64,000 nt of DNA from Antedon mediterranea. Taxonomy: Eukaryota > Echinodermata > Crinoidea > Comatulida > Antedonidae. The stretch lies in assembly GCF_964355755.1 (NCBI RefSeq), contig NC_092678.1, positions 4,932,922 to 4,996,921 on the forward strand. Reading direction: 5' to 3'. The notes under the pieces were generated by a model. It was not told the origin of the DNA and searched no databases. It saw nothing but the letters and a program-made list of their open reading frames with translations. The position numbers and the translations under genes are program-made. Positions 1,966-57,000 of the stretch are shown piece by piece (position 1 is the first letter of the stretch; each line of letters opens with the position of its first letter).

Positions 1966-3006
1966 AGGACATCAATTGCTGCTAAATTCGATGAAGAATT
2001 TACGTTATAGTGTATCTGTTGAGTTAGTTAAAGTGTTTTGAGAGCATTGCATGTGACTGCACTACCTTGCATTAGTTATATTATTCACTGTATAGTATTG
2101 GATTGAAAAAAGCACCTTTGAGCATACAAATTTAACAATTTACCATTTCAAATATTAAAAAAGTATTACACACATACGGTTGTAGTTTGACAAATATCAT
2201 TGACATATCAAAAAGAAGTCAAAAACAATTACTTTACAGAAGGAGTTAAGCCTTTTTATTGTGGTATATTATGACATTACCCGTCACCAAGAGATGCAAC
2301 CAATCAGGTTTGCGATCAAGCTACCACTAATTATGATAAAATAATATTAATTATCTAATTATCAGTCTGTCTGTTTGTCCGGTCTTCTACTAATTTAAAC
2401 ATTTTGTAAAGAACGCGTTTAACTTACATTAAATGGATATTGTACATGTATAAGCTAAGCACTTTCTTACATATTCAAACATGGTATAGGAACTTAACTC
2501 CAAGCTGAGTTTATACCAGTCCATATAGCAAATCTATAATATATAGACACTACATGTCTCATACAAGTATCAATTCTAAACTAAATATTAAGTTTATAAA
2601 AAATAAGCTTTGGATTGAGATTAAACTTAAGATGCGAGGTATAGGAAGACAAAAAGCATACAATAATAATATATATAAAATTGTAAGATATTTATAGTCA
2701 TCTTGAGTATTTAAAATTAATGGAAGTTACCTTGGGAGTTTAACATTGATGTGGAGAAACATGTACCTAATTAAATGTAGTACTAATGGTTTAACTTAGT
2801 ATAATATCTTAAGTCGCTTGTTAGCACCTACCAGAAAATAAAAACATGTAATATACAAGTATACAAATTTGAGTTTCTGGTCACAACTATGGGCAGCCTG
2901 CGGTGCCTGAAATAGTATGCCTATAATTTAGTTTTAACCAGAAATCAAAATAGGTATATTTTTGTTTTATTTTATGAATTAAACACTTGATCACAACTAC
3001 TGTTCT

Positions 3007-8200: not shown

Positions 8201-8529
8201 TAGATCTATTTAAGGGTAGTCAGCTTTGCCTTAGCTTCTATACTATATTTCTATATTAAAAATGGTTAGCAATTTTTTGCGAAGGAGCCATTTAAGCATA
8301 AAGATCTGTCTACACTATCAAAAAAGTTTGCTCAAATACGGTAGTGATATACCCAAATATGGTAGCGATATGACATCATCATGTCCATATATGGGCACAT
8401 CACATTTTTTTGTCGCATAAAGTTTGATAGTGTAGACAGAGCTTTAGACAACTGATTAGAAGCTTACCACTGACGTCATCCCCAAACTCACTGCCTATAT
8501 CCGTGATCGTATCTAGACTAGGCGACGGA
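5284..8529 (-). CDS. SRGAP: srGAP exon block 3: C-terminal tail
   Basis: Exons: 8475-8529 (or 8468-8529), 7202-7287 and 5284-5644 (stop TAA 5284-5286). The first gives SPSLDTITDIGSEFGDD. Its common-looking donor (GTAAGC, exon edge 8468) does not join 7202-7287 in frame with the last exon, whereas the upstream donor GTCAGT (edge 8475) does, giving LKAATDGDQVGDQEQDASPW and then RSLSESSNTLDVVIEEPK. The last exon contains IDNTMANNLKELDQIPDTPS and a PTTPTTPTAPKPAVRPKPVR stretch, like the conserved srGAP tail (MSTALHELRELE and the proline-rich end in human srGAP2). If exon 8468 is used, an unseen exon must lie between. Confidence 0.8.
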
Positions 8530-23500: not shown

Positions 23501-26500
23501 ACTTTTCTGATTTTTTCTACAGCGCCATGAGCAATGAATGTTGGAATGGCGAGCATAAATCGAACGATTGATTGATTGATTGATTGATTCATAATCATAA
23601 ATTTATCTCTTATTTGATTTAGTTTAAAGAAACTAGACTTACAGTAAATCAATTGGTGTAAAATCAATTATCAATAAATTCCTAAACATCTCTAAAACCT
23701 CTTTTAAATCCAAAAAGTAAAACTGACCAGCAAAATTTCCATTCGAAAGTCTAGACTTTTTATGATAAAAACAGAAAGTAGTGAAATACGACTCAATTGG
23801 AATAAATCCAATTTATTACTATGTGAAAGAACTCACTTTACAAGAACTATACTGTAGTATCTTGTAATACATCAATTGAGGTAAAATTTCTGTAAACAAG
23901 TGTTTTTGTATTGTACAGTACAGGAAGCTGTTGATGTCGATAATAGTGACAAAACATAGCAACCTTTAGTAGCACATTTGAGGTGTTTGCAAAAAAAACT
24001 AATCAAGAGAAAAGGAGGAAATAATTCAACAATGTTTATTGGAAAAACATTTCCTTGTTCAAATGATGTTCTTCCCTGTGAATTCTAACAAGATATCCTA
24101 ATGTGGTTTGTGGTTTATGAACTTTTCTTAGAATCTTGCATTTTAACCAATAATATTCCAATTTTGCTACTGATTTTTAGTAAAGTTGCTTGTGATGACA
24201 ACTCAGTTAATACTGGACCAGACTTGAACCACAACCCTATAATTTGAAGGACTGCATCAGGCTGCGCTGTCACAAATTAAAATACATGACTGTACAAAAA
24301 CAGTATTTGGTTACAAGGTGGAAAACCAAACATAATCTGCCAATTGTTTAAATTTTGGAGAAAGAGGAAACTAGAAAAGTCAGTGACATGAATACTGGCG
24401 AAACGTTGACATCTGTTAGACATTGATATAATGATCTTAGTCCTATTGTTCTTTCCTATCTGTAACTTCTTTCGATTTAAATTTCATTCCCACAATTTAA
24501 AACTTCTTCAATTAAGTCAGCCACTTGAAACAATCAAATATTAAAGTGGTGAGATTAAGATCTCTTAACTTACCTTTTTAAAGATTTTCTGCAACTCTTC
24601 TTGGGCTGTGGTGAAGCTATTTACAATGTTACTGCCATAAACCTGACTGACGATGGTGTGTTGTCTGTACTGGGACCTTGTTAACTGTAGAAGGGTATTC
24701 CAACAGGCTTGTGGCGACGGCCCTTGTATGTCTTTTCTAAAACAATAAAGGTAAAAATGTAAATTGATAAAATAATGTCATTTAATTTACACTGCAAAAG
24801 AATAATAAATGGTATTACAGTATAGATCTTTAAAAAGCCATTAAAAAAAATATAACAATAATGTTACTACAGTATTACATTAAAAAAATGATATTAAAGT
24901 TGTAGAATTAACTGCAATAATTAATTTATTATTTTATTTTATTTTTATTTTTTTAAATTTTATTTAATCGAAACCAACAGCTATAATTACCGCCACTAAC
25001 AGGTTTGATACAAACAAAGCCAGGACTGTTTAAAGCACCTTGATTGGTCCTAACATTGATCAAGGGCTTCTCTCGTCCAGTGCCCACCTTGACCAGAGGT
25101 CTGAGACAGATACTACTAGATGCAGGGGCTGCCATAAGAGTCAGCAGTGCTGATTTCAAATGCCTAACAGGACCCCAGCTCCGTATACAGCACCCGTTAT
25201 TCCCAGATGGTCTCCACCATCCAAGCTCTAACCAGGCCCAACATCGCTTAACTTCGGTGATCTGACGAGAACCGGTGTTTCAACGTTGTAAATATATATT
25301 ATAAAGTGCATTTCTTGTAAAATTCCCTTCCTTCCAATAATCAACTGCAAAATGGTCCCTAAAAATTTACTGATATATCCACCATCGTTTAGAGTCGCAG
25401 GCGAAATCTTTTGATTAATGGTTACTTAGATTGTAATAGTTTATCTAGGGCTTAAGTAAGTTTATTATTTAGGGGTTATATTATAATTTGGCTTTTCGTG
25501 ATCGATTTTATTGGCGTTATAAAAGATGTAATGGACATGACCAAGTACGAGTACATGATACATGACAAAGGTTCATGTTACCAGATGTCATGTGAACATG
25601 TGTTTGTGATGAATGAGGCACACGAGAAATGACACAAGCTTCAACAATGTTATTAAATCCAGTAACCAACGTGAATTAGACATTAGAGAGCCACTATACT
25701 CCGCTCAAATTTGTGCTCAGTAAATTATGTACAGAACAAGAAAAACAATCAATCATACTGTAGCATCTTTTCTAAATTTCTTCTTTTAAAAATTAACAGA
25801 AATTTGTTTTGAAAAAACTGGCATATCATTATAAAATTATAATAAATAAAAAAATTGCACCAACACAGAAAAGCACTACACCATCATCAAAACAACTTAA
25901 TTCTCTGATAAAAATGGCTAAAAGATTAAAAATTACTAACTAATTATTCAATATTGCACATTTATGATAATTAAAATAAGTTTATATATTTATCAGAATC
26001 AGAAAAGTACTTTCAGATTTCATGTTGTTGTACACTTTAATTTTTGTTTATTGTCGATTTCACAGACGAATTCTTCATATGATCTTGGTTCCTTGTAACC
26101 TAATCTGTCTTCATCAATAAATTTATAATTATTTCATAATCAGGTCACGTTAATAAATCTTGATAAATTATGTTCAGTGTGTTCCTTACTAATTAGCATT
26201 CCAGACAGAGATATGTCCGCACGAGACAAAATAAGGTATGCTCTCAAAATACATTAATTATAATAGGTGATTAACAAAGGTGATCAATTACTTTAACGAA
26301 CAGATGCCAACTCTAGGATCTTATATTATTATGTATGGTTTTCATGTTATAAAACTAGATTATTACATAGTATAGTACAGATAACTGTTATTGTCAAAAA
26401 AAAGACTTGAACCCAACCCAATGGGCTAATGGAAATTAAACGCCAGCTCCAAGCACCAGGTCCACTTGGTGGTTAAACAATCATAAATCATTTTTAAAAT

Positions 26501-38500: not shown

Positions 38501-39115
38501 GTTTGACTGAAACTAGAAACAGAAAGTAAACTTAATGCTGTCTTCAGTATCACAATGACCTTCAACAGCAAACTTTTTCTTTCTTTTATTTAATAACGAG
38601 AAAAAACAATCAAACTACAGTATTGTATTCGGTTCATCCTTCCTGTATTCAATTATACTAAATAAAATGCAAAGGCCTAGATTTAAAAACGAAAATACAT
38701 AGGCCCCTAGTGGGATACACATAGTATAATAATAAGTGGATGATGTCTAGCCTAGTAATTAGGCTGCCTGAATAATATATAATAAATCTAGGCCTACCAC
38801 TTCACTGAGTGAAATAACATTTTTTTCAGTCTATTATTAGTATTATATAAATAAAAACAAATACATATTATAAATATTCAATAACATCCAGGACTCTCCA
38901 GGATTGCACAAAAGGGTCAGGGTCGAATTGACCAAGAAGGGCAGTGGAATTGACACCGAGCAATCACAGCCCAATCAATTTTCTGTCAAAGGTATCACCA
39001 CCCTACCTCATACCGGGAGGACGGGCTGCAAAACGACTTTCTATTTTAATTAATACTCACCACGCGTATTTCCATCAAAATCTTGTAAAATCTCTTTTTC
39101 TTGTTTTCTATCCAT
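5284..39115 (-). CDS. SRGAP: SLIT-ROBO Rho GTPase-activating protein (srGAP), complete gene
   Basis: Nineteen coding exons join in phase into about 857 residues, against roughly 1,070-1,085 in human srGAP1/2. The ATG at 39113-39115 starts MDRKQEKEILQDFDGNTR, followed by the F-BAR opening EIRQRLTEQLKCLD. Approximate order: F-BAR and its helical extension 19-450, a short proline/basic linker 453-480, RhoGAP 480-690, a serine/proline-rich tail 691-857. srGAPs bend and bind membrane through F-BAR and switch off Rac/Cdc42 through RhoGAP, acting in cell protrusion and neuronal migration. No SH3 domain was found between RhoGAP and the tail. One invertebrate gene probably stands for the three vertebrate paralogues, so no paralogue number is given. 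It is divergent from FAM72. Exons are listed in the three block entries. Confidence 0.93.
8030..8150. promoter_or_regulatory. Candidate conserved non-coding element in srGAP intron
   Basis: A ~120 bp block stands out from the AT-rich intron by its even base composition and low repetition. It holds a G-rich run (GGCAGCGGCGGGGGGAGG at 8048-8065), an octamer-type site ATGCAAAT (8117-8124) and a non-repeated core ending in GATCCCTGTAGTCGTTC. No splice sites flank a convincing exon, and the open frames across it are short. The regulatory role is inference. Confidence 0.35.
8300..8446. mobile_element. MITE copy B (same family as 3007-3214)
   Basis: Left end AAAGATCTGTCTACACTATC and right end GATAGTGTAGACAGAGCTTT are inverted copies. 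The interior has a CCAAATATGG unit and a CCATATATGG. It sits in the srGAP intron next to exon 8468-8529. Confidence 0.9.
8668..10896 (-). CDS. SRGAP: srGAP exon block 2: linker and RhoGAP domain
   Basis: Exons in transcript order: 10787-10896, 10617-10677, 9643-9720, 9361-9501, 9058-9163, 8668-8886. They encode LFKGDLQKYIAASGQDIPVV, GLHHQGIFRVGGSQSEINDI (its arginine is the expected GAP arginine finger), INSVASVLKCYFRELPEPLF, LIEQLPDDIMIVMRYLFAF and SDENMMDSHNLAICFGPTLM. This is a complete RhoGAP fold with the catalytic arginine and the usual asparagine-containing helix, so the protein should be an active GAP. The last exon ends ATATAAG followed by GCAAGT, a GC donor; using it puts the next exon in phase. 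Confidence 0.93.
10970..11070 (+). mobile_element. Possible tRNA-derived SINE fragment
   Basis: CTGTAGCTCTATTGCTTGCT followed ~25 bp later by CTGGGTTCACATCTAAT resembles a pol III A box and B box at tRNA spacing. The acceptor stem does not fold well, so this is not a functional tRNA. It could be chance similarity. Confidence 0.3.
11292..39115 (-). CDS. SRGAP: srGAP exon block 1: N-terminus and F-BAR domain
   Basis: Exons in transcript order: 39061-39115, 31580-31760, 24574-24736, 20686-20748, 18083-18217, 16849-16977, 13049-13270, 12480-12620, 12233-12415, 11292-11376. Diagnostic stretches are IEFDYARALERLYDKF (31.6 kb), NTLLQLTRSQYRQHTIVSQV (24.6 kb), IGVHEELLKVMSQLQK (20.7 kb), TKARNDYILSIAASNSALRK (16.9 kb), CLDLGYVRSTRKTFGAFLTA then PPQTFHYQPHGGDE (13.1 kb). 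All fit the srGAP-type F-BAR, including its extension that ends in ENYYLD-KYKEFLRNTNIETRL. Several junctions are phase 0. The first intron is 7.3 kb and the second 6.8 kb. Confidence 0.92.
12000..12185. repeat. Tandem repeat, unit about ATATATCAACTCTTTGTATAG
   Basis: Six or so degenerate 35-40 bp units (…ATATCAACTCTTTGTATAGACATA…) lie in the srGAP intron just downstream (minus sense) of exon 12233-12415. Confidence 0.75.
12734..12850. mobile_element. MITE copy C, 5'-truncated
   Basis: The right end CTGATAGTGTAGACAGAGCT is intact. The left copy starts only at TATGTGACAAAAGATG, so its terminal ~20 bp are missing. The interior keeps CCAAATATGG and, inverted, CCATATTTGG. Confidence 0.85.
14439..14508 (+). 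repeat. Dispersed repeat fragment, copy 1
   Basis: TAGGAGTTTTATCAGATAAT…ATGACCACAGTGCTGATTTT recurs nearly unchanged at 55822-55882, with a short indel between the two halves. No terminal structure is visible; it is probably part of a longer mobile element. Confidence 0.75.
14580..14790. repeat. Tandem repeat with ATAATATGGTTATATTATTG
   Basis: Three to four diverged copies of a ~65 bp unit (…GGACATAATATGGTTATATTATTGTG…GTAGGATTTGTAT…) are visible in the srGAP intron. Confidence 0.7.
15300..15660. mobile_element. 361 bp inverted-repeat DNA element with TTA target duplication
   Basis: The left end GGGAGTTTCGCAACCTTACG and the right end (reverse complement AGAGGTTTCGCAATCTTATA) form ~45 bp imperfect terminal inverted repeats, both continuing into AACGAAAACGGATACGTCA-like sequence. 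TTA flanks the element on both sides (15297-15299 and 15661-15663). TTA/TAA duplications are typical of PIF/Harbinger MITEs. There is no coding capacity. Confidence 0.8.
16115..16215 (-). mobile_element. Possible LINE 3' end
   Basis: ATAATAATAATAACAATAAGCTTTATT followed by non-repeated sequence looks like a simple-repeat LINE tail in minus orientation. The fragment is short and has no open frame, so the call is weak. Confidence 0.3.
16586..16746. mobile_element. MITE copy D
   Basis: Inverted ends are CATGTCTACACTATCGAACT and AGTTTGATAGTGTAGACATT. The interior has CCATATTTGAG- and CCATATTCGGG-type units, so the CArG-like motifs are decayed here. Confidence 0.88.
17074..17256. mobile_element. 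Palindromic MITE (different family)
   Basis: CTAGCTTACCTGGATAAACC … AACAATAGCCCTTTTTTTCT is repeated inverted at the right end (AGAAAGGGCTATTGTTGGTT … TATCCAGGAAAGCTAG). The arms are ~60 bp and enclose ~65 bp; the whole would fold into one long hairpin. It lies 100 bp from srGAP exon 16849-16977. Confidence 0.85.
18218..20685. other. srGAP intron (2.5 kb)
   Basis: AT-rich, with poly-A-like runs and a CTGCAG-bearing tandem repeat (18990-19165). No exon or protein-like frame was found. Confidence 0.6.
18990..19165. repeat. Tandem repeat around CTGCAGTAATCTAAATT
   Basis: About three units of ~55 bp (GCAGTAATCTAAATTGCTGA … ATGTTTTCCTATAGTATTG) with point differences. Confidence 0.85.
21400..21680. 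repeat. Purine-rich tandem repeat (AAGAAATAAAAGAAGATGAA…)
   Basis: Four to five units of ~55-60 bp with AGATCAGCTTGAATCAAAGT and GATGATAAACTAAAAGAAG. It is strongly purine-biased on the plus strand and has no long open frame. Confidence 0.85.
22635..22820. repeat. Tandem repeat, three units of ~57 bp
   Basis: AATAATGTGCTGCAAATAGG … GCTGATGATGACCTATGACC recurs three times; the first units are nearly identical, and the last carries small deletions and an ATAAAGGC end. Confidence 0.9.
23309..23600 (+). mobile_element. LINE 3' fragment, L2/CR1-like, with (GATT)n tail
   Basis: The frame 23309-23530 encodes RELRSSHQVLLDIPRSKHSW then GDRTFSVAGPRLWNHLPLNI, a signature of the C-terminus of L2/CR1-clade reverse transcriptase proteins. 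After the stop come ~35 bp and a (GATT)n run, the simple-repeat 3' end used by this class. Everything upstream is missing, so this is a 5'-truncated dead copy. Confidence 0.85.
24930..25290 (-). mobile_element. SINE with 5S rRNA-derived head (SINE3-like)
   Basis: Read on the minus strand, 25290 to 25186 matches the 3' two-thirds of 5S rRNA: ATCACCGAAGTTAAGCGATG, TTGGGCCTGGTTAGAGCTTG and CTGGGAATAACGGGTGCTGT. This part includes the internal pol III promoter. It is followed by ~220 bp of unrelated body and an A-rich tail (AAATAAAATTAAAAAAATAA, plus-strand 24926-24960). Head, body and A-rich tail fit a 5S-headed SINE. The first ~30 nt of 5S are diverged or absent, so it is not a working rRNA gene. 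Frames across it are not genes. Confidence 0.8.
25186..25290 (-). pseudogene. 5S rRNA-like segment (SINE head)
   Basis: This is the rRNA-homologous part of the SINE at 24930-25290. The match runs from the CAGATCACCGAAG region to GGGTGCTGT and has several substitutions and small indels relative to animal 5S rRNA. Confidence 0.8.
26983..27902. mobile_element. 920 bp inverted-repeat DNA element, non-autonomous
   Basis: The ends are GGGCCTGTTTCTGCTG and CAGCAGAAACAGACCC, inverted copies with one mismatch. TAT flanks both sides (26980-26982 and 27903-27905), a 3-bp target duplication. Both subterminal zones are full of AATCGATTATT and AACCGATTA motifs, probably transposase-binding repeats. The centre is less AT-rich, but I saw no transposase frame. 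A PIF/Harbinger-like origin is a guess from the duplication length. Confidence 0.82.
27912..28520. repeat. Tandem array of palindromes (~42 bp unit)
   Basis: About eleven units of the form GAAATAAGTTAGGACTTATTTC plus CTCCTTGCATTATGTAAGAA; each unit core is itself an inverted repeat (GAAATAAGT-TAGG-ACTTATTTC). The array is interrupted by unrelated sequence at 27950-28075 and 28398-28425. It begins right beside the end of the 920 bp element. Confidence 0.93.
31761..39060. other. srGAP first intron (7.3 kb)
   Basis: It is mostly AT-rich, with CTGCAG-rich clusters (34560-34735), a possible LINE tail (37970-38135) and two stretches of more balanced composition (34900-35110 and 35510-35830). Neither stretch has exon-like splice sites in frame with srGAP, and the first coding exon joins the second directly in phase. 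Confidence 0.6.
37970..38135 (+). mobile_element. Probable LINE 3' UTR fragment
   Basis: TTTAATTTTACTTCGGATGC … TTAAAATTGTATTGTATTGG resembles the 3' end of a non-LTR retrotransposon with a short (TTGTA)n-type tail. No open frame remains. Confidence 0.35.
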
Positions 39116-39522
39116 TTATATCTATCACCTTCTGCACAAAATAAAAGTTTATGAAGATGTAGGCCTTATAAACGATATAAATAACTCCAGTGACACAGAC
39201 AGGGACTACTCGATGGTGCTGCGCTAGTCCGCTCTAAAGGTCGCCATTTTATTAAATGAATAGAAACTTCCGGGTTTGCATTATGGGTAAATTTAAAGGG
39301 ATAAACGTATGACGTTCATTGGTTACTTTTGTCTACCTAGACCAATCAATCAAGCCATTTTAAACAATTAGCCAATCAGATCAGTTCCTGTTCAAGAATC
39401 TCACATTAATATGCACGTGCGGTTGATTTAAAAATAAATAAGAAACCGACCGCAACAACGCGAGAGAGCTAGCTAGAAAACTCCACTTGAATTCAATATT
39501 ATACTTGGTTTAACATTTTAAA
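39116..39522. promoter_or_regulatory. Shared divergent promoter of srGAP (-) and FAM72 (+)
   Basis: The start codons are 407 bp apart and face away from each other, so both 5' UTRs and promoters lie here. Visible sites: GGTCGCCAT (39239-39247, YY1-like), CTTCCGG (~39268, ETS-like), three CCAAT boxes (ATTGG 39318-39322, CCAAT 39342-39346, CCAAT 39372-39376) and CACGTG (~39415, E-box). The three CCAAT boxes are 24 and 30 bp apart (start to start). Clustered NF-Y sites with no TATA box are typical of bidirectional and cell-cycle promoters; factor binding is inference. Confidence 0.75.
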
Positions 39523-40438
<916 letters not shown>

Positions 40439-41071: not shown

Positions 41072-43225
41072 TCACATAATTTTAGTCCAAGCAAATTTGT
41101 CTCTTAATACAGACAAGAAATGTTGATTTGTTTCTTGCTTAAACCATCGGTACCACTTCACAATTTCTTGTCTTTTTTGTACAACATCGTTTGCGTTTGC
41201 ATCCAAATTCTTTAAAATATCTGGAAGCTGATTCCAGTCTTTAATATAAATGAACGGCGCATTCATCTTACGAAGAAGTCGTAATGGACTATTCCCATTT
41301 CTATCGCATTCACCTTCTGTGACAGCGTCCTCAACGATTGGTATTGAGCCGTACGACATCGCTTCGTATAATCTATAGCATTCCGTGTTGACACCAACAG
41401 GATTGAGTGTGAAATCACTTGTAGCCAGACCTCTCTTATAAACATCTAAACTCTCCTTTGACTCGAGTGGTTCCCAGCTAATAGAGAAAAAAAATGTATA
41501 AAGCTCTGTCTATACTATCAAAAAAGTGTAATGTGCCCAAATATAGTAGCGATATGCTCAAATATGGTAGTGATGTGTCCATACATTGGCACATCATTTT
41601 GTCACATAAAGTTTAATAGTGTAGACAAAGTTTAAGATGACCTTATAGAGGGCTAAATTATTGCACAGTAGTTTAGTAACTGAAGAGATTCTTGAATACC
41701 TTGTTCGAGTTTTTATGAAACATTTGTCGTCAAGTCCAGCTCCCTCTAAACTATTCATCAACTTCTCTCGTGATGAACCTGGGTAAATTGTTCCTAAAAA
41801 ATTGCATACATATGGTCTGGATATATTTATTCTGATTGCTTCTTCCTGTACAACTGGGAAGCCTCTATACCTGCAGGATAAAAGATAAGATTGTTCACAT
41901 CAATTTGCATAGATTTGAGGACAGAATGGTTAATACAGAACACACTGAAAGGTAAACATACGTTGCAACACCAAGTGGCCATTGAAAGATGTTGTCATCA
42001 TTGACAATTTGCGTGTCATACGTGATAAACAAAGCCTTGACAAGTCCGCCATGTGTTGTTAGGTACTGAAGTATCCATTCATTGTTACACTGTTCATTCC
42101 CTAAAAGAACCACAGCTATGTTCTTTAAATTAGAATAATGTGGAAGGTAGTCAAGCCATGACCTCGCAAAGTCTATTTTTTCTTGCGTTCTCCCGTTTAA
42201 AACCAAAACAAGGTTTTCAACATCTTGGGGTACAGTTGACTGCACCACACCGGGTCCTGTACGAAATCTACAAAGGAAATTACAAATTTAAGCAAATTAA
42301 TTTGATGAATTTTACCGAAAAAAACCCACTTGTATAATAGAGAAATACTTAGCAGAAAATACTTACTGGAATTTCAACTCATCTTGAGTGAATGTACCAT
42401 ACATTGAGAGTCCTCCTAACTCGCTTTCTAGTTCACCCTTTAATATATGTTCCCACAAGTAAAGACCTAAAAAAGGTGAAAAATTTGCATTTTTAACATA
42501 TAAAAAAAAAAATGGAGGATTCTGTTGTGTCAATTGTAAAGAAAGTGTATACAGTCTTTAAAGGTTTTATACCAACATTGCAGTGTAACTTATTAATGCA
42601 ATGGCCAACATCTTTAAAAGGATTGTAAGTACTTACAAAGTAAGTAAATTAAGTAAACTTACTTATAGCAGCTTTCCCCCATATTTCCACGTTCTTTGTT
42701 CTTATAGAACTTGTTTCATTTCTGCTAGAGAAGTTGTTTGATATGTGATTGATTCTTTTGCCAAACAGTTTAGACCGGGGACTGGTAGTCTTCTTCAATG
42801 AGAGAAGATTTTGCTTTAAATCTTTATCTGAAGAAAATCATTCATATTATACATATAAATAAACACAAAATATTTTAGTAGTAGGGAGTGAGGGTTTGGG
42901 GGTAGAATGGGGTAAAAGATGTGCAAGAAAAACAGTCTAGGGATCAGGGGATCACGTAAGCCACGTACATATTAATTAAAATAAATTCCAAAATAATAAA
43001 TATTTTCTAGGCCTAACATTTCACACACTCACTCGCCTGCCCGAAGCGATCGGCTAACTTTGTTGCAGGACGAGCCGTCCTATTGGCCCAGCCTAGAAAT
43101 TCAGGTACCTATTACTCACCAGTTTCGCCATATCTTTGATCATATAACGCATACAAACTGTACAGACTAAAGAAACAATACACAAGGATGATAATTCCTC
43201 CAAATATAGTCAACGAACACTTCAT
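41072..43225 (-). CDS. RXYLT1: Ribitol-5-phosphate xylosyltransferase 1 (TMEM5), complete
   Basis: Exons in transcript order: 43120-43225 (ATG 43223-43225), 42663-42827, 42367-42466, 41962-42267, 41700-41870, 41072-41477 (stop TGA); all join in phase to 417 residues (human about 443). The N-terminus MKCSLTIFGGIIILVYCFFS is a type II signal anchor for the Golgi. The catalytic part carries VEIWGKAAI, LYLWEHILKGELE, NLVLVLNGRTQEKI, IAVVLLGNEQCNNEWILQYL, NIFQWPLGVATY, RPYVCNFLGTIYPGSSREKL, GVNTECYRLYEAMSYGSIPI. In mammals the enzyme moves xylose from UDP-xylose onto ribitol-5-phosphate of alpha-dystroglycan matriglycan. An inverted-repeat element sits in the last intron. It is head-to-head with THUMPD3. 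Confidence 0.95.
41500..41635. mobile_element. MITE copy E in RXYLT1 intron
   Basis: Inverted ends are AAGCTCTGTCTATACTATCA and TTAATAGTGTAGACAAAGTT. Two CCAAATATAG / CTCAAATATGG units lie inside, no longer perfect CArG boxes. It is 22 bp from the last RXYLT1 exon, on its upstream side. Confidence 0.9.
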
Positions 43226-43419
43226 TTTGTAAAAAATAATTGTCAAGGCCTATCATCACTCATGGAGGTCGCCATGTTTGTTTTGAATTAAATGTCAAAG
43301 GTTACATACACACATGGCATTCAGTGGGTTTTAAATTTTATGTGGTGCTGCACACTAGCTGCTGCATTTTGAAGCATAAAAACTGGGTTTACAACTTAAA
43401 TATTAACATTTTAACGAAA
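43226..43419. promoter_or_regulatory. Divergent promoter of RXYLT1 (-) and THUMPD3 (+)
   Basis: Only 194 bp separate the two start codons. GGTCGCCAT is present at 43267-43275, the same 9-mer as in the srGAP-FAM72 promoter. No TATA box is evident. The plus-strand frame stays open upstream of the THUMPD3 start to 43240, but I chose the ATG at 43420 because the conserved sequence begins just after it. Confidence 0.65.
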
Positions 43420-46194
43420 ATGGAAACTGGAGACAGTATAGTAGAAATAGGTGCAACTGTGCCAACTGGTTTTGAGTACCTAATTAAAGAAGAATGCAAA
43501 GAAAAACTGGAGAACGAAGCACAGTGTCGCAGAGGAAAAGTTTATTTTCCAATTAAATTTGAAGATTTGCACAAGGTTGTTTGTAATATTAAATACCAAT
43601 ATGATTCACTGAGGGAGGGAACTGATTAGTGCCTCCTTTTAAATGAGCGGCCCTAGAAACCATCATCAAGAACTGATGACGTTTCTTTTGTTGTATGTCA
43701 TCCTTTTTATTAATTACAATAATTTGTCTATCATAGGTTATCACATTAAGAGGAGTCGATAATGTTTTCATCGTTGCAAAGGAGATTGTTAAAGATGAAA
43801 GACTATTAGATGAAAAAGTAAGTTGCAATAATTAATGTCTTTTACTATTTCATTAACTAGGAATGTAAACAGGTACATAATTGTTGAATATTTCATATTT
43901 TATACATTTATTGTTTTCTTTGTTTTCCCTAGGAAGCAGCAATTAAGTTTCTTGTTAACTTTACTGAAGGATTCAACTGGTTGCCTGCTCTTAATGCCTG
44001 GCAATCATTTACTGGAACAAACTTTGACCTCACTCTCCCTGACCCAAACAACAGCAGCGAACAACGTAACCTTCCATCATTCCGTGTCACCTGCACAAGG
44101 TCGGGTCAGAGACACAAGTTTGGTTCACCAGATGGAGCTTGTCACATTGGTGGTAAAATAAACGATATGTACCATTGGCCCGTCAAGATGAAGAACTCGG
44201 ACTTGGATATTATGGTTGATATAACGGATGATAGCGTTATCTTTGGAATTGCTTTGACTAGAGCAAGTCTTCATAGAAGAAATATTACACACTTTGGGCC
44301 AACCACTCTGCGACCCACCGTGGCATATGGAATGCTAAGGTACCCCCTGTTGACATCCTTTTAAGTTCATGATAAATTGCCATTCCTCCTCAGGATTCTT
44401 GCATATTAACATGCATAAAAAAAAGGTCTGTAAATTAAATTGTGACATTTTTTTTGTCCATTGTAGGTTGGCAAATCCAAAACCTGGAGAGGTGGTGTGT
44501 GACCCAATGTGTGGAGGAGGATCCGTCACAATAGAGGTATCAATCATTACAATCTACAACTTACTACACACATCCAAGACATTTGATATTAATTATAACA
44601 TTGTGATGTTTTCCTAGGGTGCATGTTCATGGGCGTCAAACTATTTTGTGGCAGCAGACATCAATAAAGTTGGAACTGAGCGTGCAGTGGGAAACTTAAC
44701 AGATATGGCAGCCTCTCGCAAGATAGAGCAAGGAAAGTGAGTGTGACAGTTACGACAAGTTTTCTTTGTCATGATGAAAAGATCATTGCTAACATTTTAA
44801 ACATTGCAGATTAATTATCACCAAGCCAGTTACCCATCATTTACTAGTAATCAACTTTGTCTTCTTTTTTTCAGAGGTGCTCTTATGAATGATGTGTTGA
44901 GATGGGATGTGTGCAAATTGCCTTTGAAAACCAATTCTGTGGATGTTTTTATCTCAGATATGGTGAGACAAAAAAGAACATATCTCTAGCAATAATTTCT
45001 TTTTTTCTGTAATCAAAAGCAGTAATAGAATAAATAATTCTAGGAATATTAACACTATTTTTTGTTTTTATCTCTTTTTTAATGAACGCTACTGCACCAA
45101 CATCAGCCTTTTGGAAAGAGGTAGGTATAATCAGTGTACCATGTCCCGCATACCTGGCTTAGCCTATATATTGTGCCAGTTCTGCGGTACATTTCATTTC
45201 GAAACCTGAGCTGCACTGACGAGATCTAATAAGATCGAAACAGTACTGTCCAGATTACAGATTGTACAGATTGGATATATAAAAGCCCTAGTGGTCTAAT
45301 GGTTAGGACATCTGCATATCAAGCAGGCGGTCCGAGTTAGAGTCTCTGTTTGGGAGACTTTTTCTCATTCTCACAGATTTCCTCATCTTTATCGTTTCAA
45401 ATTAATTAATTAAATTTCAGTATATCACCGGGCGGTTTCGAACTAATGTTCATTGCCTAATGTGTTTATATATATATATAAACTTGCACTGAGCTAGTGT
45501 TGCCTGAAAGCTCTGCTAACCTTTCTGGCTGTTTTACTTTATTGTTTTGATTTAGCTTTTCGCTTTTTTTTTTGTATCTCCATTGAGATCCACCCACTGC
45601 ATTTTTTTCAGTAATTTGTCTTTGGATTTATATTTAAACTTGTAACTATACTTTTAAAGGAATTAATGCAACATTTTATTCAGTTAATGAATTCAATTAT
45701 TAGTTAAACTGCTCTGTTTAAATTATAGAATGGGCTCAAAATATAGAAACTGGCAGTTGTATGAACAGGGTCTGCGAGAGATGGCTAGAGTATGCCGACC
45801 AACGACAGGGAGGGCGGTGTTGCTTACGCAAGACAAGAAATGCATGCAGAAGGTAATAAAAAAAACATAATTTTTAAACTCTTGTGTTGCTATTCATCCG
45901 TTAAAACATATTTTTATATCGGTTTTTTTTCGCCTTCTTCAGACTTTGTATCAGTTTACTACAATGTGGCGTAAAAAAACTCAACTTTTTATAAACATGG
46001 GAGGTATGTCTGCTTGTGTATATTTACTCCAAAGATGCAAGGACAAGTTAAACCATGAAGATAGTTCTGAAAACACACCAATGGAGGAGAGTGGAGATGT
46101 AGCAGACGACAACATGGAGGAAAGTGGAGATGGAGCAGACGACAACATGGAGGAAAGTGGAGATGGAGCAGCAGATGACGAGGGTTTTAAATGA
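43420..46194 (+). CDS. THUMPD3: THUMPD3, tRNA (guanine-N2) methyltransferase, complete
   Basis: Nine exons: 43420-43575, 43737-43817, 43933-44339, 44467-44536, 44618-44736, 44875-44962, 45107-45120 (14 nt), 45729-45852, 45943-46194; in phase, 436 residues (human about 507). The start METGDSIVEIGATVPTGFEY matches THUMPD3. A THUMP-type RNA-binding part leads to LTRASLHRRNITHFGPTTLR, then the SAM-binding motif DPMCGGGSVTIE (~227-238), DINK, and the catalytic motif SDMPFGKRMGSKYRNW (~305), then RPTTGRAVLLTQDKKCMQK. With TRMT112 the human enzyme makes m2G at tRNA position 6. The C-terminus is an acidic repeat of MEESGDGADDN units. The donor after exon 1 (AAG|GTTGTT) is unusual but is supported by frame and homology. 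Confidence 0.94.
45286..45368 (+). pseudogene. tRNA-like / SINE sequence in THUMPD3 intron
   Basis: AGTGGTCTAATGGTTAGGAC is a good D-arm and A box. CTGC-ATATCAA-GCAG forms a 5-bp anticodon stem with apparent anticodon AUC. GGTCCGAGTTAGAGTC is a weak B box. The acceptor stem pairs poorly (GCCCTAG against TTTGGGA), so it is a decayed tRNA or the head of a tRNA-derived SINE rather than a working gene. Confidence 0.5.
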
Positions 46195-46932: not shown

Positions 46933-49900
46933 TCATTGTTCCCCGTCGGATAACTTCAACGTCAAATGCGCAAATTCAAAAGAAAAGGCTAAAAAAGTCC
47001 AATCATTGATTAGCAAAAATGTAAGTTTCATTTTATCTTTACATTGTAATATTCTAAAAATGTTTTAAAAACTCATTTTGTTATAAAACAAAAAATAACA
47101 AATTATAAAATTATTTTATAAATGGACGGAACTTGTAATGATTGCACATAAAATGTACTAGCATTATTAGACCTTGTAAGATAAATTATTATGTTTGAAA
47201 ATTAATAAACAAAAGCATTAGAAACTAATAGTTCATTTGCATCCAAACCCTGCATTTGTTTGTTTAGCACCAAAGATGTACTTTGCAACAAAAATTGCAA
47301 AATATTTAACGGAAAGCTGAATAATGTTGCAATTAGTACAATTTGCCGACAATGTTTATCGATTGCTACACGACGATGAGAACGATTACTGTTATGCTTG
47401 CAATGAATTGTGGGATACGATTACATATACACAATATTATAACACACAACACTACTGGAATTTATATTGTAAAATACATTTCAAACTTTTTTAGTTAAAA
47501 ATAAAAACACTCCACAAAAGTTAGATATTATGAAACTATTTATAATTAAATTAGAATAAATATGTTTACACTCAAGGTAGTTAAATCAAGCAAAGTTACT
47601 ATCTTATATAGAGATTTCTACTAAAATTATAGTTATTTGTACAACTTTATATTTACAATATTATATAATTTCTAAACATACACCGCATTCACAAATCAAA
47701 CTACATTAATGGTTATTTAAGAAATAATTAAGTAAAATACAAGTAACATGTTGTAAAAGTGGTTTATTGGTTTGCCTGTCCATCCAATGGCCTTGGTTCG
47801 AGCCTGGTTCCAGTCAAGTACCATATCATCATACTATTGCACAGTATTGACCAAAAAGAAATATTCACACAAAGTAGTTACGTCGAAGCGTGTCCATATA
47901 GTGATTGTTTTGTTGATGCGAAGTGGAAAGTCTTGAACGATCAAAACCATTGGCTAGATTATCACGTATGTCACCTACATTTGGACCAACCTCCATGGAA
48001 GCTGAGGAAACAAAATAAAAACATTTAACTGCGAAACTTGTGCAAGATTAATAAATATTTGTATTTTTTTTTGTTTTGTTAGAAGATCTTACCCGATCTT
48101 AAGTGCCTTGATATGCTTTTATCCAATTCACTCCACACCTGTAATTATTAAATCAAAATTATCAGATAAAAACAGACTAACAATATTTAAAATAAACTTT
48201 AAAATTGAAAAAATAATAGTGAAATCAACAACAAATATTGTGTACTTTTTCGGTAATGGAATCAATTTCTGTATCATTTCTTGTTCTGCGTTTGAGAATT
48301 GGTGAAGTAGGCGATACGCTAGCCTCTTTTAAATGTTGGTTGCGCTGTCGTTCAAAGCTGAAATGAAAACATTAAACGGTTTCAGTCAAGATGCTTATGC
48401 CATATAACTTAATTTTGGGTTGAATCAATAGATTACTTAGCTCTTCATCATAAGCACTTACTTAAGTTTGCTTTCATAGTTTGATAACCTATCTCTGGTA
48501 TTTTCAAGATCCATTGTCACTTTCTCTTTTGATTTTAATTCACGTTCATACAACTCCTGAAAATAGATTATTTTTGTTTTTTTAAACAATTGTTTTTTAG
48601 GCCAACATGAACAAATATTGCAGAGAAAATATTATTTTACCTTGAATCTTGCAGCTTCAGTTTGTAGTGTGTCTTTCTGTGCCATAACATCATGATAAGA
48701 TGTTCTTAATTTTACTATATCAGCCTGAAATAAAAACACAAACAAAAATCAAAACAAAATTCCTACCTCACAAGTTACTACATAGACGACAATTACATCT
48801 ACCCAAAACTCTTTCTTATTATTCTTTATGGTCATTATCTAAACGTCTGTCTACACTATCAAATTTCATATGGCAAAAAAATGTGATGTGCACCATACAT
48901 AGACATGATGATGTCATATCACATCATCATTGACATTTTTATATTTATTCTTTATTGAATTTTAACTATTGTAATATATTTTTTACTTGTAAGGTGTTTA
49001 TGTCGTATTGTTGAGGGCCCCTCAAAATCAGCTCCTGCTGGCTGGGTCACCCTCTTGAAATATGGTTGAATAAATAAATAACTACCATATTTAGGCATAT
49101 CACTACCAGATTTGGACACATCACACTTTTTTGTCAAACTAGTTTGATAGTGTAGACTGATCTTAAGTCTCTGTTACCTTTTGACTTGTAATAGCATTCT
49201 CCAGTTCTTTCTTCATATCTTCTTCATTTGAGTTTCTTAGTTGTTCTAGTTTTTCACGTGCTTGTGACTGCTCTTCCAAGTACGCGTTTACCTGATCCAG
49301 CTTCTCGTTTATCTCAATACGGGCCTAAAAAGATTACATACGAAGAGGATTTTAAATAAATATACTTGATAATGATGGTACTAATTATAAATGAGATAAA
49401 TAACAATCACAAAGAAAATGATAATGATTTAATTAACATATTTCACTAACCTTTGCATCCAATTCCTGCTTGTATCTTTCCAATTCACCTTTTTCGATAA
49501 AATCTTGATTAAGTGCACCCTAAAAAAACAAACAACCAACTTTAATAAATGTAAACAGAAGCAGCCGAGAAATCTAATCCAATCAAAATATTGTAAGTTA
49601 CCTTTAAAACCTTTAGTTCATCCTCCAGTTTCCGCTTTGACTTTTCTAATTTTTCTTTTCCCTAAAATAAATTTTTAAAATTCCGTTGAAAACAAATTAG
49701 ATAACAAACATCATTTTAATTTGTGCTTAACTTCTCAAAATATTGTGTATTAACTTGAAAATTGATCATCATAAAAAAAAATCAGAATACACACCTTTCC
49801 TATTATCTTCACGGACGATGCATCTGAAAAACACACAAAATAATTTAAACTTTGCAAATAGCATTAATTGATTTAAACTTCGCTTCAACTTTTTGCATTT

Positions 49901-51093
49901 AATCGTTACCTCTTTGTAATTGCCTGTTTATCATTTCAATCTCTGACCTCAGTTTGTTTTCTTGTTCCAATTGTTGATTAACGTCTTCAAGCTGAAATAG
50001 AACATTTATCAAACGTTTGCCTGTCAATGTTTCTCCATGCATCTATATAAAACCAATAAGAGAAAGACAAAGTATGGCCACAAAAAAGTCAGAGGTCAAA
50101 TAATAGCACTTACCTGTCGTCGCAATGCTGATACGGTTGCGTCCATGTTTATTCTTTCTCGTTCAAAGTCAGACTTCAAACTGTTGATACGCATTTCAGG
50201 CATCTCTAGATCCTGCAAAGTTTACAACATATACATTCAAAAGTCAATTTTTATCAAATAATCACTAATCTATTACTAATACAAATTATGAAATTGAAAA
50301 CTTAATTACTAACCTTTAATTTTTTCTTGGCCAATTTTAGTTTCATTTTGTAAGTGTTTAATTCTTCATCTTTTTGACGATTTCTGTATAAAACAAAAAA
50401 TATATGTATCAAAACTATACTGTACTCAGAAGTTAATGAAGAACATATATACAACAAATTACGATAAATAATTCATACCTTTGAATTTCATTCTCAAGTT
50501 TAGATTCTACAGATCGCTTCAGCTCGGCCATTTTTCTTGTTTTTCTTTTTTCCTAAAATGTAAATCAATTATTGAGTATGACTGACACATATTCTTAATT
50601 CTTATATTAATAATACTTAATATAAAAATATAAAAATTTAAATATTTGATTCTTACATCTTCAACTTGTCCCATCACTCCAGCCCTTGACCTTTCCAACT
50701 GAGCCATCTATTTGTTGAAAACAAAAATAATAAATATTACTCAATTATCAAATATATGAGCTGTGCAATCCTTATTACCATTTTCCATGGTAACTTACTT
50801 TTACACCAAGCCTTGACCTTGATTTGACCTCTGTTTCCCATAAGTCTTTGTGTTCTTCAGCTTCTTTTGCAAACAAACTTCTTGCAGCAGTTTCATCCTA
50901 AATTCCAAAGAAAAAATGAATTTCTCCTTTTATAGATGAAGGCAGAAATTTGTTGCAGAAAAACAAAAAATAAATGATAAAATAGATGCAAATTGGTAAA
51001 AAAAAAACGGTGTAGACTCACACTAAGCCTTCCTTCCATGTGAATGTTTGTAGAATTCAAGTTGTTCACGATTGCTTCCATTCCTTCACGCAT
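46933..51093 (-). CDS. ANKRD26-like exon block: C-terminal coiled coil
   Basis: Exons from the stop upward: 46933-46988, 48093-48138, 48246-48357, 48462-48556, 48641-48724, 49178-49324, 49451-49519, 49602-49661, 49795-49823, 49910-49991, 50114-50212, 50314-50383, 50479-50552, 50657-50707, 50799-50897, 51022-51093. The last exon (FAHLTLKLSDGEQ) is the least certain; it is supported by phase and an acceptor TTTTTTAG only. Exon 48246-48357 could instead be read through to a TGA ten bases past its donor, giving a shorter end. Confidence 0.75.
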
Positions 51094-54000
51094 CTGAGAA
51101 TAAAAGCAATCATTACTTAGTCAGTATTTAGGCAACACCTGTATTTAGGGGACACCTGTATTGAGAGGACACCTGTATTGAGAGGACACCTGTATTGAGA
51201 GGACACCTGTATTGAGAGGACACCTGTATTGAGAGGACACCTGTATTGAGAGGACACCTGTATTGATAGGACACCTGTATTGATAGAGGACACATTTATT
51301 TAGGCGACACCTGTATTGAGAGGAAACCTGTATTGAGAGGAAACCTGTATTGAGAGGACACCTGTATTGAGAGGACACCTGTATTGAGAGGACACCTGTA
51401 TTGAGAGGACACCTGTATTGAGAGGACACCTGTATTGAGAGGACACCTGTATTGAGAGGACACCTGTAATGAGAGGACACATGTATTTAGGCAACACCTG
51501 TATTGAGAGGACAACTGTATTGATAGGACACCTGTATTGATAGAGGACACCTGTATTGATAGGCGACACCTGTATTGATAGGCGACACCTGTATTGATAG
51601 GCGACACCTGTATTGATAGGCGACACCTGTATTGATAGGCGACACCTGTATTGATAGGCGACACCTGTATTGATAGGCGACACCTGTATTGATAGGCGAC
51701 ACCTGTATTGATAGGCGACACCTGTATTGATAGGCGACACCTGTATTGAGAGGACACCTGTATTGAGAGGACACCTGTAATGAGAGGACACCTGTAATGA
51801 GAGGACACCTGTATTGAGAGGACACCTGTATTGAGAGGACACCTGTATTGAGAGGACACCTGTATTGAGAGGACACCTGTATTGAGAGGACACCTGTATT
51901 GATAGGACACCTGTAATGAGGACACATGTATTTAGGCAACACCACCTGTATTGAGAGGACACCTGTATTGAGAGGACAACTCTATTGATAGGACAATTGT
52001 ATTGATAGGACACCTGTATTGATAGAGGACACCTGTATTGATAGAGGAAACATGTATTTAGGCGACACATGTATTTAGGCGACACCTGTATTGAGAGGAC
52101 AACTGTATTGAGAGGACACCTGTATTGATAGGACACCTGTATTGATAGGACAACTGTATTTAGGAAACACCTGTATTGAAACATCAAGCTAGCGTAGAGA
52201 ATGAATGAGGATGTGTGTACATGTGCCCAGTTCACACATCAGCTCAACCACCAATAACAAGTTAGTATTATTTTTTACCTTATGTGCTTCTTGTAGGTTC
52301 TTTTCTAGAGTCTCACAGCGAGCACTTTCTTGTTTTAGCATCACTTCTAGTTTGGCGTTCTTTGTTTCAACTTCTCTTAAATGATCATCCATCTCAATCT
52401 ATACAGAACAAATCAATTAGATATTTAGAAAAAAAGCTTATGATTTAATGCAAAACTGTCTCAAATTTTAAACTGTTCGACTATAAGCAATATTATATAT
52501 CTATGCATATAATTAAAATGTTTTTCAACTGATTAGCTCTAGCCTTACACGTCATCACCTACCTTTCGTTGGACGGCATCTTTGGCAGTAGATAGCTGCT
52601 CCTTTGCTTCAATTTTAGCAGTCTCTGCTTGGCCTAGCTTCTCTTCCAATCGGTGAATCTTTCCAATTAAATTATCTTGATTATGTCCAGATAAAACCAA
52701 CTACAAACACAGAAAATAACATTAACTATTAAAAGAAGGAGGATAGTATATGAGCATAGCATCATGAGATTATTGTATGAAATAGTGTGAAATAAAGTTT
52801 TTATTTTAAGACACACTTATTCGAAAGAAGCCCTTTTTGAGAGGACACTTTAATGTGGAAGGTACAAGGTAAGTTTAACACAATGTCTTTATTATAGGGA
52901 CCCTATGTTGAGCCATAAAGGTGTCCCCTTAATAGATAACATATAGGCATGTTCATACTTTTTCTTCCATTTGCTCATGTTGTTTTATAATCAGATTCTT
53001 TTCTCTTAAGAACGCTTCATGGGTCTGAAAAAACAAAACGTATCATGTTATTAACATCCAAACATTCTAAGCTAACTATTATTAAAGAAACTACTGGGGA
53101 AGAGAAACCAGGGAAGGCATTGGTGTCTGACATGGGAAGAAGATTGGACACAACTGGGATACATATTACAAGACTTGTCTTTCAAGACTTGACTTGTCTA
53201 GAAACAGAAGACACTGGAATAAGTTTGCTCTATTGAGGTTTGACAGGCGTAAGTCTACGTAAGCTAAGTAGGTAACTTCACAGTCTCAGATTATAACCCT
53301 TTCTTCCTGTCTGGTAAGTCTAGTAATTCACCAAACACACATTTGTTTGTTACTTACATTAGCTGCATGCTGGAGATGTGCCTCTGCAACAGACAGCTTG
53401 CTTGTTGTATCCATCAAATTCTGAATAACAAAAGATTAGAGTTAATGATGTAATCAAGGATTTATTAAAAGAAAACAAACGATTAAAGGAACAAGTTGAT
53501 GGTACACTTTTAAAAGTAAAACACAAGTGTATTACTAATGTCAACAGAAAATCAATGACACCTATCTATTCCAGAAGAAGGTGTTATTATCAAATTCTAA
53601 ATTAAACATTTTAGATCAGCGTACCTTTTGAAGAGTTTTAACATCCTGGTCTTTCAAACTACCGGTTTGGTCTCTCTGTTGTATTTCATTCCTCAACTGA
53701 GAAATAGTTGCCGACAAATTTTCATTCTTTTCTTCTAGCAATACTTGGGCCTATATGGATGCAACAACAATAATAGTGATTTCCAATAAAATAGGAGACA
53801 AAAACTAACATCTGTTAGTATATGTATTTATTATGGAATTGGACGTAATTCTGTCTTGTGTACATACAATTGAAGACCTTGGTAGACAAGTAAAAAAGAG
53901 TAGGATATTGTCTACCGGTGTGCTGATCTGGGAAGGTAATGCGCTGCTGACAGCCGTGGGTTCATTGATTAATGACAAAAACTCGTTCGGAAACAGAGCT

Positions 54001-57000
54001 TTTTAAAATTATAAACAGTGGTTTTCTTCAGTCTTCATATTCCAAACTTTTACTTATAACATTAATAATTACCTCCGCCAAGGAGGTTATATTTTCACCC
54101 CTGTATGTTTGTATGTTTGTATGTTTGTGTGTTTGTGTGTGTGTGTGTCTGTGAACAGCCTGGAGGCCACAGTTTTTATCTGATTCTCACCAAATTTGGC
54201 AACAATGATCTATGCCCCAAAAGCTCGAACGAGTTCGAATTTGATGGGGAAAGGTCATAGGTCAAGGTCACAACTAACAAAAAACTATTTTACTGCCTAG
54301 AGACCACAGTTTTTATCCGATTCTCACCAAACTTAGCCACAATGATCAATGACACATCATATAATTGTGGTTAAATTTTGAAGGGTCAGGGTCAAAGATC
54401 AAGGTCCACAAAAAGTTTAAAAAAAAGAAATAAAAAAAAAAAAAAAACCTCAGTGGGACTTGAACCAGCGATCTCAACTGTGAGAGGCTGGATACATAAC
54501 CATTTTACAGTAGGCGGAGGTTTGTACTCTCGGAGTATCCTCTAGTTAAATATGAATCACACTGTGTTAGTAATAAGGTTAGTAAATAGATACTATGTTA
54601 ATGATAATGAAACAAGGAATATTTTTAAAAATAATATATAAAATATTCCCTAATAAGTAAAAAAGAGGAAGTAAATCTATAGAAAGCAGTAAAAACATGA
54701 TAATAAAAACAATCTGTTATAAACACAAAAACATTTCAGTAATGTTATTATATAAAAGATACATATCATCATATGAATGTAAATATCTTTGTAATTCAGC
54801 TAAGGCTGCGATGATGATATTGAAATAAATGAAATGAAATGAAAAAAATGAAATGAAGTGCAAGTAACATGTTTGCCACGAGGATAATTCCCTCTTTTTA
54901 CGAGAATGTCCGCAAGTGCGGCATCTATGGTTTTAGAATAAGAGTTTTGGAATAGTGAAATGATCTGGTTAGGTGTACGGCAAACTATTTGTTACAATCC
55001 TCAAATCCCTTCACTAAATGGAAGAAAATCCTTTTTGAGTGTAATTTTTTATTGTTTGTTGTATATATGGAATTTTTATTCTGAAACCATTGTCACTACC
55101 TACCTAAAAGTTGGATCATTGTTAATCTAGTGTTAAGACTACAATTAATTTAACAAACAAACCATGATATGAATAAATGTTAGTTTATTAAATGTTAGAA
55201 AATGTTGAGTATGTATGATTACAGTTTGTCAACCTACCCTTTCCTTGTCAGCACGTAATGTATTAAGGGTCACATTTAGTTTATCCTGAAAATTGTTACA
55301 ACAAAAATACTTATATTTCAAAGAATTTCTTAGCTATGCTTTTGAGAGGATATTAATCAATCTCATCCTTACATCAAATCTTGATTATTTAGGGAGATAA
55401 AATAAATGACAAATAAGCAGTTATTCTTACCGTGACATCAAAAGCTTCTCTGTCTGTGACTTGCTTCTCACTCTGCGATGTTTCCAAAGATTTCTTAAGT
55501 CCTTGAATTTCATTCTGTGCATCAGTAAGTCTACAAAACAAGAAAAGAGTCAGTGGATATTTTTTTTTTCTATCTTGAATGTAATTTAATTTTTTCCCTC
55601 ATCTTCAATCTGTATATTATGTTTTACTTTAATATTTCAATTGTAAAACATAAATTTAAAATAAATATTTAAAATGTGAATATTGTTTTCTTATTTTGAT
55701 TTGAAATAATGAGATCTTCAATGGGTTTTTACCTCTCTTTTGTTGTTTCCAATCTGGCAGCCAGGCGAACATTTTCTTCCTACAAAAATGAGATGGATTA
55801 AAAACATTATGTTACTACTTTCTAGGAGTTTTATTAGATAATCTATATTGTTTTGTAACATGACCACAGTGCTGATTTTGTGACTGATCAAAAGAACAAT
55901 AAAAATGATGTTGACCTTTTCTCGTTGTAGTACAGATTCCTGCATATGTACTTTGTTTGTTCGTTGGTCAAGTTCCCGTTGCAACGTCATCAACTGATTG
56001 TTGCGTTCCATCAATGATGACTGCGTCACATGAATCTGAAACAGAAAAGGTTTGAAAATTATTTGTGATTGTTTTCCAGCTTTTGGGAACTCTTGTTTGG
56101 CAAAATTATCTGTATTTATATCATCATGTTATCAGTTACCTCATTTTCCAGACTGATCACTCTCGTTTCAGCCGAGCCAAGTCGTACAGCGTTTGCCTAA
56201 ATCAACAATTAATCAACACATAAATGAAGTAAAAAGCATTGCATAAACATTATAAGAACACTTCTTTACGAGACAAACACTTTTATTTGTGAGTAAATGA
56301 ACAACGTGACACATACCTGTGTGGCGTCTTTACTTGCTATTATATCCTGATCGGTTCTCAGTCGTATTTGCCGCGTCTCATCTCGCTCTCGATGTAAAGC
56401 CCTTAAATTAAAAACAAAACGCTGTCATGACAACTAGATAATAACTAAATAGTATCATCCAATTTATCTTACGTTGCGTTATTGCATCAAATTTGCAGTA
56501 TTCTAATACATCAACATGTTACCTTTCAAGTTCACTGCGTGCTTGTTGAGATTTCTCAAGTTCTTGTAATGTGGTGTCAAGTCGGTTGTTGATTGAGTGT
56601 AGCTTAAACAAAATGTTAAACATAATAAGAACAAACAGATTGAGTTTATAGGCAGCAAAAAATTAAGAAATGACAACAAATTATTGCATATGAAACTTTG
56701 CTTTCAGAAATACAAGAGTATGCATAGAGTAACTGTAAAGCTATGGCTCCCACTAGAACGCAACGCAAGGACATAAACGCAAGGTAAGCGAGTTCACCAA
56801 TCACAAGCTTCGGATTATTGGAAATTGGCAACACGCTTGCATTTTGTCTACAGTGGGAACTAGGCTTAAGGCTCAAAAGATGCGTAGCCCTGTATATAAT
56901 GTACAATTAAACACAAAAGTGTGTATATAAACAAACCTCTGACAGGAGTTTCTCTTTCTCACTTTGGTCCCTTTCTATTTCAGAATGCAGCCTTGCGTTT

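Follow-up and report, generated by a model that had tools for sequence, protein, structure and literature searches.

A srGAP, FAM72, RXYLT1 and THUMPD3 gene block in a very probably echinoderm genome likely predates the vertebrates

Vertebrates carry three SRGAP genes together with ARHGAP4; srGAP is a brain-development gene and FAM72 a cell-division gene. In vertebrates, FAM72A is described as divergent from SRGAP2, and the same review states that the SRGAP2-FAM72 pair is confined to notochord-bearing vertebrates (PMC7957592). Here, we describe a 64,000-nucleotide stretch of contig NC_092678.1 (the window, whose positions are used throughout) in which a single srGAP gene and a FAM72 gene stand head to head and are followed by RXYLT1 (TMEM5) and THUMPD3. 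The resulting order, srGAP (minus), FAM72 (plus), RXYLT1 (minus) and THUMPD3 (plus), occupies 41 kb (5284-46194). We consider it likely, with few reservations, that the window preserves a pre-vertebrate block ancestral to both echinoderms and vertebrates. This four-gene block is the stronger finding from the sequence, while a regulatory link between srGAP and FAM72 is plausible and unproven. The features of the block are as follows.

5284 to 39115, minus strand: srGAP gene, start codon to stop, with F-BARx, RhoGAP and a conserved C-terminal tail; SH3 not found
39113 to 39115, minus strand: srGAP start codon
39116 to 39522, no strand: srGAP/FAM72 divergent spacer, 407 bp, a putative bidirectional promoter
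39523 to 40438, plus strand: FAM72 gene, 4 coding exons, 148 aa
39523 to 39525, plus strand: FAM72 start codon
39523-39665, 39859-39936, 40049-40170 and 40335-40435, plus strand: FAM72 exons, with the stop codon at 40436-40438
41072 to 43225, minus strand: RXYLT1 (TMEM5) gene, 6 coding exons with approximate ends, tail to tail with FAM72
43226 to 43419, no strand: RXYLT1/THUMPD3 divergent spacer, 194 bp, head to head, without CCAAT; CGCCAT at 43270 (the reverse of ATGGCG, YY1-like) and two TTTGAA
43420 to 46194, plus strand: THUMPD3 gene, 9 coding pieces in the model, with THUMP and UPF0020 methyltransferase domains; stop codon placed by eye

The evidence for an ancestral block comes from the neighbours of the human SRGAP genes. 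A gene list for human 12q14, restricted to OMIM genes, comprises AVPR1A, DPY19L2, TMEM5, SRGAP1, XPOT, TBK1 and RASSF3 (PMC4525753), while one for 3p25 comprises OXTR, RAD18, SRGAP3, THUMPD3, LOC440944 and SETD5 (PMC7902511); both lists read as map order, although neither is stated to be so. In sole, a single bacterial artificial chromosome is listed with mapkapk2a, dirk3 (as printed), rassf5, ikbke, srgap2 and fam72a (PMC6579814). The SRGAP1 and SRGAP2 regions can be recognised as duplicates because TBK1/IKBKE and RASSF3/RASSF5 adjoin them. Taken by human copy, the partners are TMEM5 for SRGAP1, FAM72 for SRGAP2 and THUMPD3 for SRGAP3, and all three are the next three genes here. RXYLT1 and THUMPD3, which lie at 12q14 and 3p25 in human, are joined with FAM72 in one 41-kb block in the window. 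Strands agree as well with the human arrangement, in which we take TMEM5 to lie upstream of SRGAP1 on the same strand, THUMPD3 to be divergent from SRGAP3 and FAM72A to be divergent from SRGAP2.

Most simply, a single ancestral row would have been copied early in vertebrate history, each copy then losing a different set of genes. On this account, the ancestor shared by echinoderms and vertebrates would already have had the block, which was later multiplied by the whole-genome duplications of vertebrates; each surviving SRGAP copy would have kept one of these 5′ neighbours and lost the others. Reciprocal loss from a single row would thus explain why the 5′ neighbours differ among the three human SRGAP genes. 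Compared with human SRGAP2-FAM72A, the locus shares both gene families, the head-to-head orientation, a four-exon FAM72 and a CHR-type element in the spacer (see below). It differs in having one unduplicated srGAP, in belonging to a very probably non-vertebrate genome and in having RXYLT1 and THUMPD3 still joined. The spacing also differs, with 407 bp between start codons here versus a 4-kbp intergenic region for SRGAP2-FAM72A in a figure legend of the review (PMC7957592).

An alternative is that the srGAP-FAM72 pairing arose independently and convergently in echinoderms and vertebrates, for which it can be said that the comparison spans two lineages only. A convergent pairing is implausible because RXYLT1 and THUMPD3 adjoin the other two human SRGAP genes, and among some 20,000 genes (as an order of magnitude) the chance of three such coincidences is negligible. 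On this adjacency we reject convergence as virtually inconceivable. The original prediction that the pair is older than vertebrates is thereby supported on this genome, which is very probably non-vertebrate and in which RXYLT1 and THUMPD3 match the neighbours of other SRGAP genes.

Several points weigh against the ancestral-block reading. The non-vertebrate side of the comparison is one genome, and the strand agreement with human depends on the arrangement assumed above. Synteny does not continue beyond the four genes: KICS2, which we take to be a neighbour of SRGAP1, is not in the block (4 of 4 matches on contig C1). OXTR and TBK1 gave no match at E up to 0.1 in the window and 80 kb on each side; these flanks (160 kb) were otherwise viewed as frames, 90 of the 127.

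Copy number was assessed over the 354,431,138-base assembly (18 contigs, with the window on C9), where a missing match is not proof of absence. All reported genome matches fall inside the window for FAM72 (2/2), RXYLT1_C (2/2) and THUMPD3 (8/8). A 686-residue srGAP model gave 23 protein matches, 14 of them within the srGAP gene, and the other nine, with identities of 26-37%, are confined to query residues 497-673, which belong to RhoGAP; the srGAP F-BARx part had no match elsewhere in the 354.4-Mb assembly. By these searches with FAM72 and srGAP, the SRGAP-FAM72 pair is single-copy here, although a weak copy could have been missed. The genome also encodes a bindin core (PF02084, E 2.3e-28, C1:15552879-15553076). 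Bindin is an echinoderm sperm protein, not known outside echinoderms, and the bindin frame (L004) presumably contains its fusion peptide. A search of the assembly for COX1 gave no match. Because it has a single srGAP and a bindin core, the genome is very probably not vertebrate, and from these sequences we assign it very probably to an echinoderm.

The original prediction had made deep conservation depend on the window being neither vertebrate sequence nor a misassembly. When this was examined, the window was found to contain no N (0 in total) and to lie on a 26-Mb contig with intact gene models. Together with the one srGAP and the bindin core, these observations make a vertebrate or misassembled origin extremely improbable. 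Nothing was found in favour of such an origin, and we reject it on the single srGAP, the bindin core and the N-free window.

The gene models bear out most of what had been predicted for the pair: srGAP on the minus strand and a complete FAM72 on the plus strand, head to head, with start codons exactly 407 bp apart. The four exons of FAM72 (148 codons) encode a protein that matches Pfam PF14976 at E 3.2e-55 over profile positions 2-131 of 145. Against human FAM72A, it is identical at 74 of 145 aligned residues, and a Trp is conserved at what we take to be the position of W125 in the human protein. No relative of FAM72 turned up among solved structures, even with E values as high as 1.

The description of srGAP as complete holds for a gene that runs from start to stop codon with F-BARx, RhoGAP and a C-terminal exon, and does not extend to the SH3 domain. 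Over residues 1-479, the srGAP model corresponds to the F-BARx of srGAP2 in a solved structure (5i6j, E 1.7e-91), and Pfam recognises RhoGAP (PF00620, E 2.4e-46) plus an FCH domain. Spliced alignment gives 19 pieces up to the end of RhoGAP, some short ones being uncertain; a further exon at 5287-5644, at the C-terminal end, matches the tail of the human protein both by tblastn (E 2e-4) and by spliced alignment. Human proteins were the queries for the spliced alignments of srGAP and FAM72; the Pfam and structure matches do not depend on them. Downstream of RhoGAP, neither tblastn nor spliced alignment found an SH3 domain, and neither did Pfam, which covered the three frames (1186 codons) up to codons 604, 608 and 681, the remainder being read by eye; a domain split by introns could escape these searches. 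Across 5284-8900 (minus strand), from RhoGAP to the conserved C-terminal exon, no SH3 is recognisable, and its loss from srGAP in this lineage is possible. Separately, an srGAP intron holds a 5S rRNA-like sequence (25182-25299, minus strand, 52.7 bits).

RXYLT1 lies 633 bases beyond the FAM72 stop codon and is identified by RXYLT1_C (E 4.4e-74) and RXYLT1_N (E 2.1e-59). Its exon ends are approximate because the automatic splice model is not letter-identical to the hand-joined protein. For THUMPD3, the hand-joined protein is reproduced exactly by the automatic splice model; it matches UPF0020 (E 4e-36) and THUMP (E 1.8e-5) and is identical to human THUMPD3 at 183 of 391 aligned residues. One THUMPD3 intron contains a tRNA-like sequence (45285-45356, plus strand; tRNA-Asp with anticodon ATC by ARAGORN), possibly a tRNA-derived repeat.

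Within the spacer between srGAP and FAM72, the ratio of observed to expected CpG is 1.07 versus 0.61 for the window, and motifs are distributed toward both genes. On the srGAP side, CCGGAAGT is ETS-like and ATGGCG is YY1-like. Near FAM72 lies a candidate tandem of a cell cycle-dependent element (CDE) and a cell cycle genes homology region (CHR), the latter being the variant TTTAAA at -96 of the FAM72 ATG (39427-39432).

39242 to 39247, minus strand: ATGGCG, YY1-like core, srGAP side
39266 to 39273, minus strand: CCGGAAGT, ETS-like site, srGAP side
39318 to 39322, minus strand (reverse): CCAAT box 1, -205 from the FAM72 ATG
39342 to 39346, plus strand: CCAAT box 2, -181 from the FAM72 ATG
39372 to 39376, plus strand: CCAAT box 3, -151 from the FAM72 ATG
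39414 to 39419, no strand: CACGTG E-box, -109 from the FAM72 ATG
39419 to 39432, plus strand: CDE/CHR-like tandem GCGG-TTGA-TTTAAA with a 4-nt spacer, -104 from the FAM72 ATG

CCAAT boxes are typical of CDE/CHR promoters, and the FAM72 side resembles those of CKS1, CCNB1 and BUB1 in its CHR variant TTTAAA, its 4-nt spacer and its CCAAT boxes. It differs from them in a CDE hexamer that is off consensus and in a spacer shared with srGAP. In the literature, CDEs are placed 4 nt upstream of CHRs, with TTTAAA among the common CHRs and GGGCGG/TGGCGG as CDE motifs (PMC5716687); TTTAAA is listed for Ccnb1 and TTCGAA for Bub1, and a table of pathway targets includes CKS1B and CKS2 (PMC4705690).

This anatomy suggests two separately tuned, back-to-back core promoters rather than co-expression. 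The promoters of srGAP and FAM72 would share about 400 bp, and transcription would start near 39260 for srGAP and at 39440-39460 for FAM72. The FAM72 half would be a G2/M promoter with NF-Y on its CCAAT boxes, where DREAM/MuvB on the CDE/CHR would repress FAM72 in resting cells and MMB/FOXM1 would activate it in G2/M, while the srGAP half, with ETS/YY1-type elements, would fire independently. A break between the two would deprive one gene of its promoter, and gene order would thus be held because splitting the approximately 400-bp spacer is costly, not because joint expression is needed. We rate this mechanism, including G2/M control of FAM72, at only slightly short of evenly balanced.

A different use of the same spacer is proposed in the "master gene" literature for the brain, namely that one shared bidirectional promoter co-regulates the pair. 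The 407-bp length and the CpG ratio would suit such a promoter, the central CCAAT boxes could serve both genes, and a common control region has been proposed for SRGAP2-FAM72 in the review (PMC7957592). However, the tandem at -104 of FAM72 and the ETS/YY1-like sites on the srGAP side suggest separate tuning, and the same source assumes that E2F4 could repress FAM72A yet support SRGAP2, which amounts to opposite expression (PMC7957592). Overall, we regard co-regulation by a shared promoter as unlikely.

Motif controls lend the back-to-back promoter reading mixed support. In 5000 dinucleotide shuffles of the spacer, three CCAAT boxes and the strict tandem occurred together in 1. Among 2897 overlapping 300-bp windows, three CCAAT boxes plus an E-box were present in 8, all at the srGAP/FAM72 spacer, and the RXYLT1 and THUMPD3 promoters have neither CCAAT nor E-box. 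The strict composite CCAAT-CCAAT-GCGG-N4-TTTRAA (plus strand) has 1 match in the 354-Mb genome, formed by the tandem at 39419-39432 and the two plus-strand CCAAT boxes of the spacer, and 0 in the reversed control. Three other cell-cycle promoters were scored, of which two have the CCAAT/E-box set and one the tandem. The one with the tandem belongs to a CKS gene (L005), whose CCAAT boxes lie at -169, -127 and -107; its E-box is at -144 and its tandem, GCGGG-CCAA-TTCGAA, at -112. In a gene that we take to be CDK2-like (L010), three CCAAT boxes are accompanied by an E-box plus an E2F-like site. The CDK1 promoter was left out of scoring because an intron seems to precede its first coding exon; the other CDK-type matches (L008, L009), the bindin locus (L004) and the window served as background.

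The remaining results count against a cell-cycle promoter at FAM72. The motif set was picked after the sequence had been viewed, and the control figures therefore overstate significance. Taken singly, three CCAAT boxes occurred in 375 of the 5000 shuffles and the strict tandem in 13. The FAM72 CDE has the GCGG core and the 4-nt spacing, but its hexamer GTGCGG only approaches GGGCGG/TGGCGG, and an alternative CDE pattern, written differently, has 0 occurrences in the spacer. A relaxed version of the tandem has two matches in the window. CHR-like hexamers number five in the 300 bp upstream of FAM72 and three each in the RXYLT1 and THUMPD3 controls, and alone have little meaning. With a single genome match, the strict composite is site-specific and no general mark of cell-cycle genes here. 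L010 lacks the tandem, and every scored element is absent from a second CKS-like gene (L006). By eye, L006 (C8:2198949) carries an E2F-like TTTGCGCGAAA about 310 bp upstream, versus CCAAT/CHR in L005.

These results bear on a further alternative, which disputes the reason for retention and not the block itself: slow, neutral rearrangement may have left the genes as neighbours, with adjacency carrying no regulatory meaning. Gene order decays slowly in marine invertebrates, the tail-to-tail link of FAM72 and RXYLT1 is found here as well with no shared promoter, and the strict cell-cycle composite occurs nowhere else in the genome. On the other side, the head-to-head spacers measure just 407 and 194 bp, and breaks inside them would strike a promoter. 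Neutral retention appears to us doubtful, if a serious possibility. The retained regulatory link that had been predicted is supported only in part: the promoter anatomy fits the reported regulation of FAM72, but its motifs were chosen after inspection.

Returning to back-to-back promoters in an ancient block, we tentatively propose, at somewhat below even likelihood, that the whole block dates back to the ancestor of deuterostomes or further and that the spacer may be an ancient switch between proliferation and differentiation, with NF-Y and CDE/CHR (DREAM) driving FAM72 in dividing cells and the other half driving srGAP. If so, the regulatory logic that has been discussed for the human SRGAP2-FAM72 brain genes would be inherited rather than a vertebrate invention, and the human-specific duplications would have copied a promoter module older than 500 million years. 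The locus also provides a clean case for asking if gene order is maintained through a short divergent promoter.

The window contradicts the vertebrate-only statement for the pair in PMC7957592. One paper has elegans and yeast for outgroups beyond the vertebrates. No prior description of the pair or block in a non-vertebrate was found among the listed titles and abstract starts of open-licence papers, and an earlier report may exist elsewhere.

Beyond the block, C-terminal exons of a MutS-family gene (462-1970, plus strand; MutS_V E 2.9e-21), probably MSH4, lie to the left of srGAP and tail to tail with it. To the right, one or more long coiled-coil genes extend over 48458-62622 (minus strand), for which an ankyrin-like frame (L019) suggests a protein of the ANKRD26 type. 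A 17-bp minisatellite, ACACCTGTATTGAGAGG, is repeated about 60 times at 51135-52179. Retroelement polyprotein-like frames occur in the flanks (L017, L025, L026), the copies in L025 and L026 being near-identical. Finally, CNBP-like and ISY1-like frames lie close together in the right flank on C9 (L022, L024), and as we take CNBP and ISY1 to be neighbours in human 3q21, they hint at another conserved link.

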